DNA of 64,000 bases from Pelagibacteraceae bacterium AG-349-L17 (GTDB lineage: Bacteria > Pseudomonadota > Alphaproteobacteria > Pelagibacterales > Pelagibacteraceae): contig QCDC01000001.1 of NCBI GenBank assembly GCA_003278805.1, forward strand, positions 62,001 through 126,000, read 5' to 3'. The position numbers and the translations under genes were made by a program. This document shows positions 37,820-55,262 of this stretch, piece by piece. How positions within the stretch are numbered: position 1 is the first letter of the stretch; every line of letters begins with the position of its first letter. The notes under the pieces were generated by a model that had not been told where the DNA came from, ran no database searches, and saw only the letters and a program-made list of their open reading frames with translations.

Positions 37820-38740
37820 CTATGCTATGGATTTCAAAATACTTCTATTAACTAAAGTGTGGGGTAAATTTCTCTCTTTGATTTCTATAATTGAAAAATT
37901 TTCACTTTTTTGAAACACTTTCCTTAACAATTCATTTGTCAAATAATGACCACCCCTATAACAATTTATGCTACCAATTATTCTATATCCCGATGTATAT
38001 AAATCACCAATACAATCTAGGATCTTATGATTAACAAATTCCTTGGGATTTCTTAATCCACCTTTGTTTAAAATCTCTTTATCTTTAACAACTATTGCAT
38101 TATTTAGACTTCCACCTTTAGCCAATCCAATTTTTTTAATTGCTTCAATATCCTCGTATAGGCAAAAAGTTCTTGAGTTTAAAATATCTTCTAAATTATC
38201 TTCATAAACATTAATTTTATTCTTTTGATTTCCAATTACAGGATTTTCAAAACATAGTTCAAAATTAATATCCAGACTTAGCTTTGAAGGTTCAATATAT
38301 ATATATCTATTCCCATCTTTAAATTCTATTTTTTTATTAATTTTTATTATTTTTATCGGGGCTTCACTTATTTCAAAACCAGCTGGTACAATTTTTTCAA
38401 TAAACTCTTTAGCTGAGCCGTCTAAAATTGGAACTTCCTCATTGTCTAGTTCTATCAAAGCATTATCAATACCAAGACCAAATAAAGCTCCCATCAAATG
38501 TTCTATAGTTGAGATTTTAACTCCAAACTCATTTGATATAGTTGTATTTAATGAAGTGTTACTTACATTGAGAAAATTGGGATAAACTATATTATTATTA
38601 TCTATATCAACCCTTTTGAATATAATTCCAGTGTCTGGAATTGCAGGTTTGATAGTTACATTTACATCAACTCCAGTATGTAAACCAATTCCACTAAATG
38701 ATATAGAGTTTTTAATAGTTTTTTGATTTAAATATGACAC
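37820..38740 (-). CDS. lpxC: UDP-3-O-acyl-N-acetylglucosamine deacetylase
   Basis: QKTIKNSISFSGIGLHTGVDVNVTIKPA; STIEHLMGALFGLGIDNALIELDNEEVPILDGSA; HKILDCIGDLYTSGYRIIG. Confidence 0.98.
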   Translation of the reverse strand: MSYLNQKTIKNSISFSGIGLHTGVDVNVTIKPAIPDTGIIFKRVDIDNNNIVYPNFLNVSNTSLNTTISNEFGVKISTIEHLMGALFGLGIDNALIELDNEEVPILDGSAKEFIEKIVPAGFEISEAPIKIIKINKKIEFKDGNRYIYIEPSKLSLDINFELCFENPVIGNQKNKINVYEDNLEDILNSRTFCLYEDIEAIKKIGLAKGGSLNNAIVVKDKEILNKGGLRNPKEFVNHKILDCIGDLYTSGYRIIGSINCYRGGHYLTNELLRKVFQKSENFSIIEIKERNLPHTLVNRSILKSIA

Positions 38741-38804: not shown

Positions 38805-39503
38805 CTAACTAAATAATTGAAAAAATTTTTCAAAAATACCCCTATTTTTGCTAATTTTTGGGATTAATTGGACTTCATTTAAATTTGATCCATTTAAAAT
38901 TTTATAAACCATAACAGGAAATTTAATTTTTTGATCTTCAAAGAAACTACTTACGTATTCTTTATCTAGATACTTGTTAATCTTAATTTGATATTTTTCT
39001 AACAAATTTTCTAAGGGATATGACAAGTTTTCTGGAATTGAAATAAAGTTTATAATCAAACTTAAATCCTCTGCTTGAATTTCTTTTTTTAGGTATTCAA
39101 AATTTTTGCCATTTATCAAGTAATTATTAACAATAATATGCATTATTTTTTGATCTTTGTAACTTTTTTGAAACAATTCTTTTGACTCTACAACCAAACT
39201 TTTAATAGCATTGTAATTTAATACTTTATTGTAATTTTTTTTTTTAATTCCAATATGTGTCCTAAATAATTGCTCATTTTCAATTATTATGAATATATTT
39301 TTTACAAATTTACCAATTAACTTCTCTATTTTTAAAATATTTTCATCAAGAAAATTATCAAGACTTGTGTAATCTAAAGAATTATTTTCAATTATAATTT
39401 CATTGCTGTATAAATTCTCAAACCTTATAACATCAAATAAATAAATTTCTAATTTATTACTTGAAATACATAAGTAGGTTTCTGTATTTGACTCTTCATT
39501 CAT
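38805..39503 (-). CDS. Truncated FtsA-like protein (1C/SHS2-like region plus C-terminal amphipathic helix; actin-like ATPase half absent)
   Basis: 232 aa at the ftsA locus between ftsQ and lpxC; by-eye match to the FtsA N-terminal half; ends RGIFEKFFQLFS. Confidence 0.55.
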   Translation of the reverse strand: MNEESNTETYLCISSNKLEIYLFDVIRFENLYSNEIIIENNSLDYTSLDNFLDENILKIEKLIGKFVKNIFIIIENEQLFRTHIGIKKKNYNKVLNYNAIKSLVVESKELFQKSYKDQKIMHIIVNNYLINGKNFEYLKKEIQAEDLSLIINFISIPENLSYPLENLLEKYQIKINKYLDKEYVSSFFEDQKIKFPVMVYKILNGSNLNEVQLIPKISKNRGIFEKFFQLFS

Positions 39504-40167
39504 TTAAAATAATTTGGTTTTCTATTCTAGCATCAATTAAAGTAAATTTCTCTCCGTCATAATTTTTTAAAAATTTATTCAAATTATTTAAGGTTTCTTG
39601 TTTAAAATTTTTTGGTAGTTTTAACAAAATATTGCTTTTTAGTTTTAAATCCCATCTCTTTGAGGGAAAAAAATACAATTCCTCAATTTGTTCATATAAA
39701 AAATTTGATTTATCTATTTTTTTTTTGAAATTAAGAAATTCATTTATATTTGGTTTACCAAATATAAATGGTAAATCATGGTTATTAAATTTAGCAGGTG
39801 TTAGTTTACCATTTGATCCAATTAAAAAAGTTTTGCCATTTTTATTTATTTGTGCAAAGAAATTTGTTTTTTCAATTTTTACATCAATAGTATTTGGGTA
39901 TATTTTAAATATTTCATATTTTTCAATTAAAGAATTTGAATTAATCAATTCATTTAAATTATTTTTATTTATAAAAAAAATGTTTTCTAAATCTAATTTT
40001 TCAATTTTATTCAAAAGAATTTGATTATTTTTTTGATCTAGACCGGATATAGTAATATTTTTGATCTTATCAAATTTTAAATTTTTAATAGCATTGTTAC
40101 TTGTAGAAGAAACAACTATTAGTAAAAAAAAATAAACTAATATTTTTTTATTTTTTTTTTGATGCAT
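39496..40167 (-). CDS. ftsQ: Cell division protein FtsQ
   Basis: N-terminal TM, POTRA-like IKNITISGLDQKNNQILLNKIEKLDLENIFFINKNNLNELINSNSLIEKYEIFKIYPNTIDVKIEKTNFFAQINKNGKTFLIGSNGKL; position. Confidence 0.85.
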   Translation of the reverse strand: MHQKKNKKILVYFFLLIVVSSTSNNAIKNLKFDKIKNITISGLDQKNNQILLNKIEKLDLENIFFINKNNLNELINSNSLIEKYEIFKIYPNTIDVKIEKTNFFAQINKNGKTFLIGSNGKLTPAKFNNHDLPFIFGKPNINEFLNFKKKIDKSNFLYEQIEELYFFPSKRWDLKLKSNILLKLPKNFKQETLNNLNKFLKNYDGEKFTLIDARIENQIILNE

Positions 40168-47912: not shown

Positions 47913-50756
47913 CTAAATTAATCCTCTCAGACTTTTTACAATGTCATTGAATCCTGTCGCAAGTGAGGCTTTAATCATTAAATAATCATTATTATTTAAA
48001 TCTTTGCTAATCAATTCAATAATTTGTGATTTATTGGATAAAATCTTTCCCCTTTTTCTCTTTGAGATGTTTTCAAATATTATTGAAGCTAATTTTCCTT
48101 TAACAAATACCTTGTCTATATTGGTTTGATTAATTATTGGAGCAATAGATTTATGGAGTTTTTTAGAATGACTACCAAGCTCTAACATGTCACCAATTAG
48201 TAAATATTTATTTGATTTTTTTGAGTTTATTTTATCAAAATTTTTTATTGCTGATTTTAATGAAAGAGGATTTGAATTATAACTTTGGTCAATTAAATTA
48301 ATTTTTTTATTATTAATTTTTACTACTGAATGGTCTCCTCTTCCTCTGGGAATCTTGAAATTTAGAAAAATATTTTCATTAAGTTCGAATATATTTTTAT
48401 AAATACTAATAATAGCTAGAGCAGCAAGTGTATTGTATATACTGTTTTGAAAATCGTTTGATAATATGAAATTTTTTTTTTTATTTTTTAACTTAACTTT
48501 AATTTTAAATTTTTTTCCAAAAGTCTTTACATTAATTAATTTAATGTCTGCTTTCTGACTTTTGATACCAAAAGAAACAATTTTAATTTTCTTTTCTTTG
48601 GCAATTTTTCTATGTAATTGAAAAAAACTGTCATCTGCATTCAATACAACATAACCATTGGTTTTTATGTTGTTAATAATTTCAGATTTTGCCAAAGCAA
48701 TTTGATTGATATTTTTAAAATTTTTAACATGTGCATAATTTATATTTGTTATTACTCCAACATCTGGTTCTATTATTTTTGATAAATAATCAATTTCACC
48801 TTTTTTATCCATTCCAACTTCTAAAATTCCAAATTCATCATTTTGTTTTAAATTAAAAAGACTCAAAGGTACCCCAAATTTATTGTTATAAGATTTTGGA
48901 GAAATACTTACTTTCGCAATTTTACTTAATACATTTCCCAACAATTCTTTAAGTGTAGTTTTGCCACAACTGCCTGTGATAGCTACAATATTTGTATCAA
49001 TACTTTTTCTAAAAGTTTTTGAAATATCTGCTAAGAATTTTAAAGTATCTTTAACTTTAATCTGACGACTTTTATTTAATTTATTTTGAATTTTGTTTAC
49101 TACAGCTAGAGATGCTTTTCTATTAAATGATTGTGAAACATATTTATTACCATCATTTTTTTTTCCTTTAATAGCAAAAAAAATATCATTTTTAGTAACT
49201 TCTTGAGAATTAATTCTTGCAGTTTTTAAAGATATGGAGGGAGATAATTTTTTATTTTTAATTGCCTCTTTAATGACATTTAATTTTAAATTATCTGATA
49301 AAGTATTATTTTTATTCTTAATAGCATTTAAAATTACCCTTCTTTCTGAAAAGAAAATTTTCTTATTTCCAATATCTTGTGTTTTCTCATGACCCTTTCC
49401 AGCCACTAACAAAATATCACCTGAATTCAAATTGTGAATAGCATGTGTTATTGCAATTGCTCTATTAGATATTTCAACAAATTTTTTTTTTTTAATTCCC
49501 TTTTTTATATCTCTTCTAATTTTTTGAGGATTTTCAAATCTAGGATTATCATTTGTAAGAATAATATTATCTGCAAAATCACTAGCTATTTTTCCCATTT
49601 TGGATCTTTTATTTTGATCTCTATTTCCCCCACAACCGAATAGCACTGTGATTATTTTATTAGGAAATTGCTCTCTGAGATTTAAAAGACACGTTTTTAA
49701 AGCATCAGGTGTATGAGCATAATCGAGAATTACTTTTGATTGATTTTTAATTTTACCAATTTTTTCAAATCTTCCCTCAACTGGTTTCAATTTTGGGATT
49801 ATGTTTAAAATTTTATCTAAACTTAAACCACTATATTTTGCTGCAATTATTGCCATTAAAACATTTTTTAATTGTATTTTTCCAATTAAATTTAAATTTA
49901 GATCCCTTATCGAACTATTTGATTTAATTCTAATAAATTGACCCTCTCCTTTAAAATTGTGGTATTGGAGCTCTATATTATTTTTCTTATCACTTAATGT
50001 ATGCAATTTTAATTTCTTATTAATTGTAATTTTTTTTATGAGTTTAAACTCTGGTATTAATTGATCTGAAATTACATTGCCTCTTTTTTGGATTAAGTTT
50101 TTAAATAAATAAAGTTTTGCATTTAAATAATTTTTAAGATTTTTATGATAATCAAGATGGTCCTGAGATAAATTAGTAAATATACCTGAATTAAACTTTA
50201 AACCATCTAATCTATTTTGCTTTAAACCATGACTAGAGGCTTCCATAATTACATTTTCTATTTTTTGACTTTTTAGCTTACTCAAAATTTTAGCCAATTT
50301 AATTGGATCTATTGTGGTATTAGATAAATTCAAATTTATAACTTTTGATTTAACGCCCAATGTTCCAATTGAAGCAACCTTTTTATTATTTAATTTTAAT
50401 ATTTGATAATAAAAATCTGCAACTGATGATTTTCCGTTAGTACCTGTAACTGCAATTAAATTTTTTGGTTTTTTATTATAAATTTTAAAAGCAATTTCAG
50501 CTAATAATTTTCTTACATTGTCTGTATGAATATATAAAATTCCATTTAGGAATTGATTTACTTTCTTTTCAGTTACAATAATTTTAGATCCTTTTTTAAT
50601 TGCTTTCGGAATAAATTTATTTCCATCAACACTATTTCCTTTGATTGCAAAAAAAATATTATTTTGTTTAATACTCCTCGTATCAAATGAAATTCCTGAG
50701 AAAGAAAAATTTTTATAATTTTTATTTATGTTATGAAAATAATTTCCTAGAAGCAT
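47913..50756 (-). CDS. murE-murF: MurE-MurF fusion ligase (947 aa)
   Basis: MurE half: VTGTNGKSSVADFYYQIL...HGLKQNRLDGLKF...LDYAHTPDALKT...TNDNPRFENPQ. MurF half: VAITGSCGKTTLKELLGNVLS...NNKFGVPLSLFNL...GDMLELG. Single uninterrupted frame. Confidence 0.95.
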   Translation of the reverse strand: MLLGNYFHNINKNYKNFSFSGISFDTRSIKQNNIFFAIKGNSVDGNKFIPKAIKKGSKIIVTEKKVNQFLNGILYIHTDNVRKLLAEIAFKIYNKKPKNLIAVTGTNGKSSVADFYYQILKLNNKKVASIGTLGVKSKVINLNLSNTTIDPIKLAKILSKLKSQKIENVIMEASSHGLKQNRLDGLKFNSGIFTNLSQDHLDYHKNLKNYLNAKLYLFKNLIQKRGNVISDQLIPEFKLIKKITINKKLKLHTLSDKKNNIELQYHNFKGEGQFIRIKSNSSIRDLNLNLIGKIQLKNVLMAIIAAKYSGLSLDKILNIIPKLKPVEGRFEKIGKIKNQSKVILDYAHTPDALKTCLLNLREQFPNKIITVLFGCGGNRDQNKRSKMGKIASDFADNIILTNDNPRFENPQKIRRDIKKGIKKKKFVEISNRAIAITHAIHNLNSGDILLVAGKGHEKTQDIGNKKIFFSERRVILNAIKNKNNTLSDNLKLNVIKEAIKNKKLSPSISLKTARINSQEVTKNDIFFAIKGKKNDGNKYVSQSFNRKASLAVVNKIQNKLNKSRQIKVKDTLKFLADISKTFRKSIDTNIVAITGSCGKTTLKELLGNVLSKIAKVSISPKSYNNKFGVPLSLFNLKQNDEFGILEVGMDKKGEIDYLSKIIEPDVGVITNINYAHVKNFKNINQIALAKSEIINNIKTNGYVVLNADDSFFQLHRKIAKEKKIKIVSFGIKSQKADIKLINVKTFGKKFKIKVKLKNKKKNFILSNDFQNSIYNTLAALAIISIYKNIFELNENIFLNFKIPRGRGDHSVVKINNKKINLIDQSYNSNPLSLKSAIKNFDKINSKKSNKYLLIGDMLELGSHSKKLHKSIAPIINQTNIDKVFVKGKLASIIFENISKRKRGKILSNKSQIIELISKDLNNNDYLMIKASLATGFNDIVKSLRGLI

Positions 50757-53780: not shown

Positions 53781-55262
53781 TTAATTTTTTTGTCTTCTTA
53801 AGAATGCTGGTATTTCAAGATCATCCTCTTCATCCTCATTTGAGGACAGTAAATCTTCAGGACTTGAATTTTCAGGTTCTGAACTAAATAAATCTGGCGC
53901 ATCAGAATCAACTCCAAATTCTTTCAGATCATTAGAAGTTTCATCCTCAAAATTGCTTTCATGAGTTTCTTGATTAGTAGTTTCTATGGCCTCTTCTGTA
54001 AAAGATTTTTCCATTTCATTAACAGAACTATCTTCAACTATACTTTCGCTTTCCATTCCAGTGTTCTGAACAACTCCCTCACTCATCATTTGATCATGAG
54101 AACTTTCAGTTTGTTGTTCTTGGATAATCTCGTTTTCAAGCTTTAAAGCATTAGCACCATGTGTGATTGGGTTTGATGCTGTTGTATTAGAAAAATTAAA
54201 AGATTGAGATGATCCAATGTTTGAAAAATCAGAGTAACCAGGATTTCGGTTTTGAATTCGATGAACCATATTTACTACAGATTTTGATTCAGGTTGTTGA
54301 CCATCTAATGATGTTGCAACAATTGAAACTCTCATTTTTCCATCCAACTCTGTATCAGTGATTGCTCCAATAATTAACTCTGCTTCAGGATCAACCTCTG
54401 CTCTTACTTTATTTACAGCCTCATCAACTTCAAAGAGTTTAAGATCTTTACCACCAGTTATATTTACTAGTAATCCTTTCGCACCTTTTAAAGTATAATC
54501 ATCAATTAATGGGTTGCTAATTGCCATCTCTGCGGCTTTTAGAGCTCTACCTTCTCCCTCAGCTTCGCCAGTTCCCATCATAGCTTTGCCCATTGCAGCC
54601 ATAACAGTTTCAACATCAGCAAAGTCTAAGTTGATTAAACCAGGTCTTACCATCAAGTCAGTTATACTTTGAACGCCATGCATTAAAACATTATTTGATA
54701 AATTAAAAGACTCTTCAAATGTTGTTTGCTCGTTAGCTATTTTAAATAAGTTTTGGTTTGGAATAACAATGATTGTATCTACATGTTTTCTTAACTCTTC
54801 TAAACCTTGTTGTGCTCTTCTCATCCTAGAGGGGCCTTCATATAAAAATGGAAGAGTCACAACACCAACAGTTAATATATTTAATTCTTTAGCAGCTCTT
54901 GCGATGACATGGGCAGCACCAGTGCCCGTTCCACCACCCATTCCTGCTGCTATAAAAACCATATTTGCACCTTGAAGTGTATTTATAATTTCATTTAAAG
55001 ATTCATCGGCAGCTGCTTGACCAATATCAAGTTTAGCTCCAGCCCCTAAACCTTTTGTTAAATTTAGACCTATTTGAATTCTTGTTTTCGCTTTACTTAA
55101 TTTTAAATCTTGAGCATCAGTATTGACTGCTATAAATTCTACCCCTTGTAAATTGTTTTCAATCATTTCGTTAATTGCATTGCCGCCTGCTCCACCAACT
55201 CCCAAAACTAATAATCGTGGTTGTAATTCTTTTATTTCTGGTGCTTTAAAATTAATTGTCAT
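53781..55262 (-). CDS. ftsZ: Cell division protein FtsZ
   Basis: [35 protein letters not shown]-terminal conserved peptide [10 protein letters not shown]. Confidence 0.99.

Follow-up and report, generated by a model that had tools for sequence, protein, structure and literature searches.

A natural FtsA descendant reduced to domain I and a C-terminal helix in the division cluster of Pelagibacter

Pelagibacter and other SAR11 bacteria are among the most abundant bacteria of the ocean, and the reason why bacterial division needs an actin-like ATPase is still debated. In this paper we ask what occupies the place of ftsA in a Pelagibacteraceae genome whose gene at this position is only about half as long as a usual ftsA. 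The stretch of DNA analysed (the window, 64,000 nucleotides) carries between ftsQ and lpxC a minus-strand ORF of 232 aa (38805-39503, ATG at 39503), while the plus strand is full of stops. A first-pass annotation had proposed that this ORF, being 232 aa instead of 400 or more, is a reduced FtsA.

The ORF overlaps ftsQ (39496-40167, minus strand; identified by Pfam POTRA_1 and FtsQ_DivIB_C) by 8 bp. The ORF coordinates confirm the 64 bp reported between its end and the start of lpxC (37820-38740, minus strand), which was named from its translation and serves as synteny anchor. Beyond this slot the cluster holds ddl, murB, murC, murG, ftsW, murD, mraY, a fused murE-murF, ftsI, mraW and ftsZ, with all gene names except ftsQ and ftsZ read from translations. 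The ftsZ gene (53781-55262, minus strand; PF00091, E 4.8e-50) lies about 14 kb upstream of the short ORF. The murE-murF gene is a single ORF of 947 aa (47913-50756), an apparent fusion; the ORFs that match it in other genera (G001, G032) have about 456-461 aa, which suggests separate genes there.

Descent of the short ORF from FtsA

Searched alone, the window ORF has 0 matches in Pfam, 0 in NCBIfam and no significant sequence match in the PDB. As no single-protein library search recognises it, the protein would probably receive a hypothetical-protein annotation. Synteny, alignments, profile comparison and structure prediction followed by a fold search all identify it as an FtsA. In profile-profile comparisons, the short forms (minis) match full-length FtsA of the same genus with an E-value of 7.5e-31 and FtsA from other genera with 9.6e-17. 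A profile of 42 minis also matches E. coli FtsA (7q6d, E 2.6e-4), with profile positions 47-190 aligned to residues 54-195, and the longer FtsAs of the same genus match T. maritima FtsA (1e4f) across residues 5-343. The Pfam family PF02491 (SHS2_FTSA) is matched by 14 of the 42 minis, two of them above the gathering cut-off; the window protein alone stays below threshold.

Structure prediction, which had been set beforehand as a check, gives the FtsA IA+IC fold. The AlphaFold2 model computed on the mini alignment has a pLDDT of 87 and a pTM of 0.81; confidence drops to low values solely towards the termini, the C-terminal helix included. In a Foldseek search of the PDB its best 19 matches are all FtsA, followed by PilM and GspL, and the top match is 7q6i, an FtsA-FtsN complex entry (TM 0.67). 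The earlier assignment of the middle of the protein to the FtsA 1C/SHS2 domain is thus supported by PF02491, by the model and by the fold match. That an unrelated protein took over the ftsA slot and only resembles FtsA would fit the empty library searches with the window protein, but we reject this as extremely improbable, given the profile homology to same-genus FtsA over IA and IC and separately at the C-terminus, the FtsA fold match and the SHS2_FTSA matches. The mini gene is a true ftsA descendant.

The part that was lost is internal. Alignments of the minis to full-length relatives show a match that runs from the N-terminus along most of the mini length and resumes over the last ~45 residues. 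The longer-form profile (392 positions), searched against 8 mini genomes with the genome of the window among them, matches only at about 1-194 and 346-391; the absent positions 195-345 are domain II, that is IIA, IIB and two nucleotide motifs. From these matches it follows that the excision of domain II begins where the second IA segment ends and reaches to the C-terminal part. Because the extreme C-terminus too matches full-length relatives, this is an internal excision, and plain C-terminal truncation is rejected. The deletion left domain I (IA and IC) and the C-terminal membrane helix, and the claim that the IIA/IIB half is missing holds.

The first IA segment covers approximately residues 1-78 (39270-39503, minus strand), an approximate boundary taken from full-length FtsA alignments and the AlphaFold2 model, in which it forms strands at residues 7-13, 17-24, 29-37 and 69-74 and a helix at 45-63. 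Its phosphate-1 motif is decayed, as the first-pass annotation had noticed: where FtsA has D-x-G-S/T (DIGSSKI type), we find CISSNKL, and the stretch varies among the minis. Subdomain IC/SHS2 follows at about residues 79-150 (39054-39269, minus strand), again with an approximate boundary, based on the PF02491 matches and the profile comparison with E. coli FtsA. The second IA segment, at about residues 151-190 (38934-39053, minus strand; profile alignment to E. coli FtsA), stops where domain I of full-length FtsA runs into IIA. The junction left by the excision lies at about residues 188-196 (38916-38942, minus strand), as placed by the absent profile positions and by the junction spacing, which stays at 26-28 residues across the four mini groups. 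With domain II missing from the 8 mini genomes, the phosphate-2 and adenosine motifs are missing too, and the site on IIB for the FtsZ C-terminal peptide is gone with IIB.

At the C-terminus we find the amphipathic helix GIFEKFFQLFS (38808-38840, minus strand), a probable membrane-targeting sequence. Residues G222, F224, E225, F228 and F231 are invariant or nearly so among 42 minis, the pattern GFFEKFFxxF is nearly invariant, and full-length FtsA ends in a homologous C-terminus; conservation and homology therefore bear out the FtsA-type helix first read from the sequence. Its hydrophobic moment is 0.55, and moments exceed those of shuffled sequences at p<0.05 in 28 of 44 minis, a modest test on such a short peptide.

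Distribution, selection and the only recognisable FtsA of the cell

Our sample comprises 148 genomes of the order Pelagibacterales, 76 of them from the same genus. The window protein as query finds matches in 73 of the 148. The same-genus ORFs fall into two kinds, of ~220-245 aa and ~370-391 aa: among the 76 genomes about 51 have the mini (a count that includes several ORFs cut at contig ends and one frameshifted), 23 have a longer form (368-391 aa) and 2 are assigned to neither. By size, the ORFs in the slot form classes of 220-244, 368-369 and 383-391 aa, and of 393-410 aa in other genera; the ORF of G013, for example, is a mini of 233 aa and that of G011 a longer form of 369 aa. Across Pelagibacterales, one FtsA-type ORF lies between ftsQ and lpxC at every locus with both flanks, with a gap of ~49-73 bp to lpxC. 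Intact ORFs of 220-244 aa occupy the slot in 44 cases, ending 61-69 bp before lpxC, and this rules out chance truncation or an assembly break as the cause of the 232-aa length.

The named records that the mini profile retrieves belong to Pelagibacteraceae and Candidatus Pelagibacter. A scan of 395 genomes of the class, whose sensitivity is limited so that unrelated mini forms elsewhere could escape it, finds all mini-profile matches outside the genus in ORFs of 400-452 aa. The TIGR01174 equivalog cut-off (175.85 bits) is passed by 9 of the 148 order genomes and by no genome of the genus.

Close pairs of minis have dN/dS values of 0.14-0.31, similar to ftsQ and higher than lpxC, which indicates that the gene is functional. 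Residues E60, E210 and F228 are invariant among the minis (n=42). The mini gene is under purifying selection. A decaying remnant on its way to being lost might be suspected from the fast evolution of the protein and from the complete genome G026, where mini-ftsA is frameshifted. We consider this highly improbable, since 44 intact ORFs persist genus-wide with the dN/dS values, the three invariant residues and the helix residues just described, and a pseudogene is rejected by the dN/dS values and the intact ORFs. In G026 itself, the next frame is open past the frameshift and its sequence is typical of minis, which fits a homopolymer indel. The frameshift of this gene (L127:1266-1962) lies in a T7A8 run; it could be a true lesion or an indel introduced by sequencing.

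No second gene that could take over was found. In the genome of the window, which is 90% complete, no full-length ftsA turned up elsewhere, and the PF14450 match there is MreB. The check for a full-length copy elsewhere thus did not refute the first reading. The 8 mini genomes include four that are single-contig and 99% complete; apart from the mini ORF, none of the eight has a match to the longer-form profile, even at E<=1. The mini-FtsA is thus the only recognisable FtsA of the cell. A partner with likeness to domain II could complete mini-FtsA in trans, either from a split gene or by MreB lending its domain II, and MreB is indeed present. This is very unlikely, though, as the missing part of the profile is unmatched in the 8 genomes even at E<=1, so that domain II on a separate gene is rejected, and MreB-size ORFs with the same partial match also occur in lineages with full-length FtsA.

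A proposed role without ATP

In other bacteria, the retained IA/IC module is the part that binds the tail of a divisome protein and makes lateral FtsA contacts; mini-FtsA has lost the ATP site along with the interface for protofilament formation and the FtsZ site. From this division we infer an ATP-independent adaptor role. We propose, with a probability of roughly 0.6, that mini-FtsA is an ATP-free, membrane-bound adaptor that recruits divisome proteins, while FtsZ is held mainly by another reader of its C-terminal peptide. Its C-terminal helix would hold the product at the inner membrane. As the ATP site and the IIA and IIB faces are gone, it would be unable to form actin-like filaments; in FtsA the longitudinal filament contacts are IIA-IIB and the lateral ones IC-IC (PMC7613929). 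Divisome proteins of the membrane would dock with their cytoplasmic parts on the IC domain and in the IA-IC cleft, and a second mini-FtsA might do so as well. FtsN, for example, docks in the IA-IC cleft, chiefly on the IC domain (PMC7613929).

In T. maritima the FtsZ peptide contacts FtsA subdomain 2B (PMC5256927). With this documented site in the lost IIB, mini-FtsA would not link FtsZ to the membrane by the known mode. One might expect the peptide to have been lost along with domain II, but it is kept: the window FtsZ retains its C-terminal peptide of 14 residues, and the core EIPAFLRRQ is invariant in 21 of 21 mini genomes checked. It is because the known site is gone and the peptide kept that we propose another reader as the main anchor of FtsZ to the membrane. 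In Caulobacter FtsA arrives late at midcell, so that in alphaproteobacteria other factors would have to hold FtsZ, which favours a reading with another tether.

It is possible, at clearly lower odds, that mini-FtsA is still the main FtsZ tether, in which case a new surface on IA or IC would take up the C-terminal peptide of FtsZ, or the FtsZ core, in place of the lost IIB site. The gene shares a cluster with ftsZ, its membrane helix is kept and the FtsZ peptide is conserved. Moreover, SepF and ZipA, both candidates for a substitute tether, were not detected in mini or longer-form genomes, whereas ZapA is present in the genomes searched. The search for a tether, which covered SepF and ZipA but not FtsEX, FzlA or FzlC, turned up no other membrane anchor for FtsZ, and this speaks against the adaptor reading that we prefer. 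Against a tether role of mini-FtsA stands the position of the known peptide site in the deleted 2B (PMC5256927). Furthermore, longer-form lineages conserve the peptide just as well (EIPAFLR(R/K)Q in 20 genomes), so that no adaptation to a new receptor is seen in it.

For the adaptor role that we prefer, the question arises which partners are available. A SPOR search in the genome of the window and 11 others of Pelagibacter gave at most one match per genome, and no SPOR-type FtsN was recognised. The single match inspected, in the genome of the window (L335:964-1725), looks like an RlpA-type lipoprotein and has mltB- and dacA-like genes next to it. The best-known IC partner may therefore be missing, a point against the adaptor role.

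Mini-FtsA shares with FtsA (TIGR01174, PF14450, PF02491; 7q6d, 7q6f, 7q6i, 1e4f, 4a2a) its descent, gene position, IA, IC, C-terminal helix and predicted fold. It differs in having half the length, a degenerate phosphate-1 and neither IIA, IIB, phosphate-2 nor the adenosine motif. To judge from its sequence, it would bind no ATP in the usual cleft, build no protofilaments through IIA-IIB contacts and offer FtsZ no site of the known kind. As it lacks these defining features of an ATP-binding actin, mini-FtsA is best kept apart from ordinary FtsAs despite its descent.

A comparable reduction is seen in the cytoplasmic domain of GspL/EpsL from type II secretion (1w97, 4pht), a relative of the FtsA/PilM fold with ~225-230 residues. 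GspL is not known to have kept nucleotide binding. It is found in our fold search (E 3e-6 to 5e-6), but the match is weaker than to FtsA (TM 0.37-0.41 against 0.67), and GspL belongs to another pathway and is not encoded in a division operon, whereas mini-ftsA sits in the division cluster. Corbin et al. in 2004, as cited in PMC7613929, reportedly made laboratory use of an isolated FtsA subdomain; theirs was an engineered fragment in E. coli, while here the reduction is natural and extends across much of a genus. The FtsA-like PilM of the type IV pilus (5eox, 2ych) binds the short cytoplasmic tail of PilN with its IC subdomain, in the IA-IC cleft (PMC7613929), but retains both lobes and its nucleotide and is a weaker fold match (TM 0.42-0.46). 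We found no unusual FtsA in SAR11, and nothing like mini-FtsA, in the open-licence literature searched, subscription papers being outside its scope.

We put at about even chances that much of Pelagibacter divides with an FtsA of domain I only, with no ATP, no actin-like protofilament and no known FtsZ contact. If this is true, nature has separated the recruiting role of FtsA from its actin role, and FtsZ is anchored by a yet unfamiliar protein or contact. As the ATP half and the FtsZ docking site were lost while selection kept the rest, part of the job of FtsA may be independent of ATP. Buchnera strains with almost no other division genes still keep FtsA (PMC10591338). A natural FtsA without domain II offers a direct test of which functions need ATP, polymerisation or FtsZ contact, and cultured relatives would allow a paired comparison, presumably between HTCC7211 (mini, 233 aa) and HTCC1062 (longer form, 369 aa).

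History of the excision

In a tree of 13 genes of the cluster, a longer-form group that includes G011 falls within the minis, and a single mini clade is rejected (p 4.9e-47). A tree built from the retained columns of ftsA unites the minis in one clade with weak support (83/59), and these data do not reject the species-tree placement (p 0.13). The junction, too, has nearly the same length in every mini group. Either domain II was excised repeatedly at one structurally permitted place, or it was excised once and ftsA was later exchanged by recombination. The disagreement between the ftsA and cluster histories over the G011-type group hints at such an exchange or at repeated excision. Even the longer FtsAs of the genus (L093-L095 and L096-L114; 368-391 aa) have undergone a shortening of their own, located between adenosine motif and C-terminus, and all of them score below the TIGR01174 cut-off.
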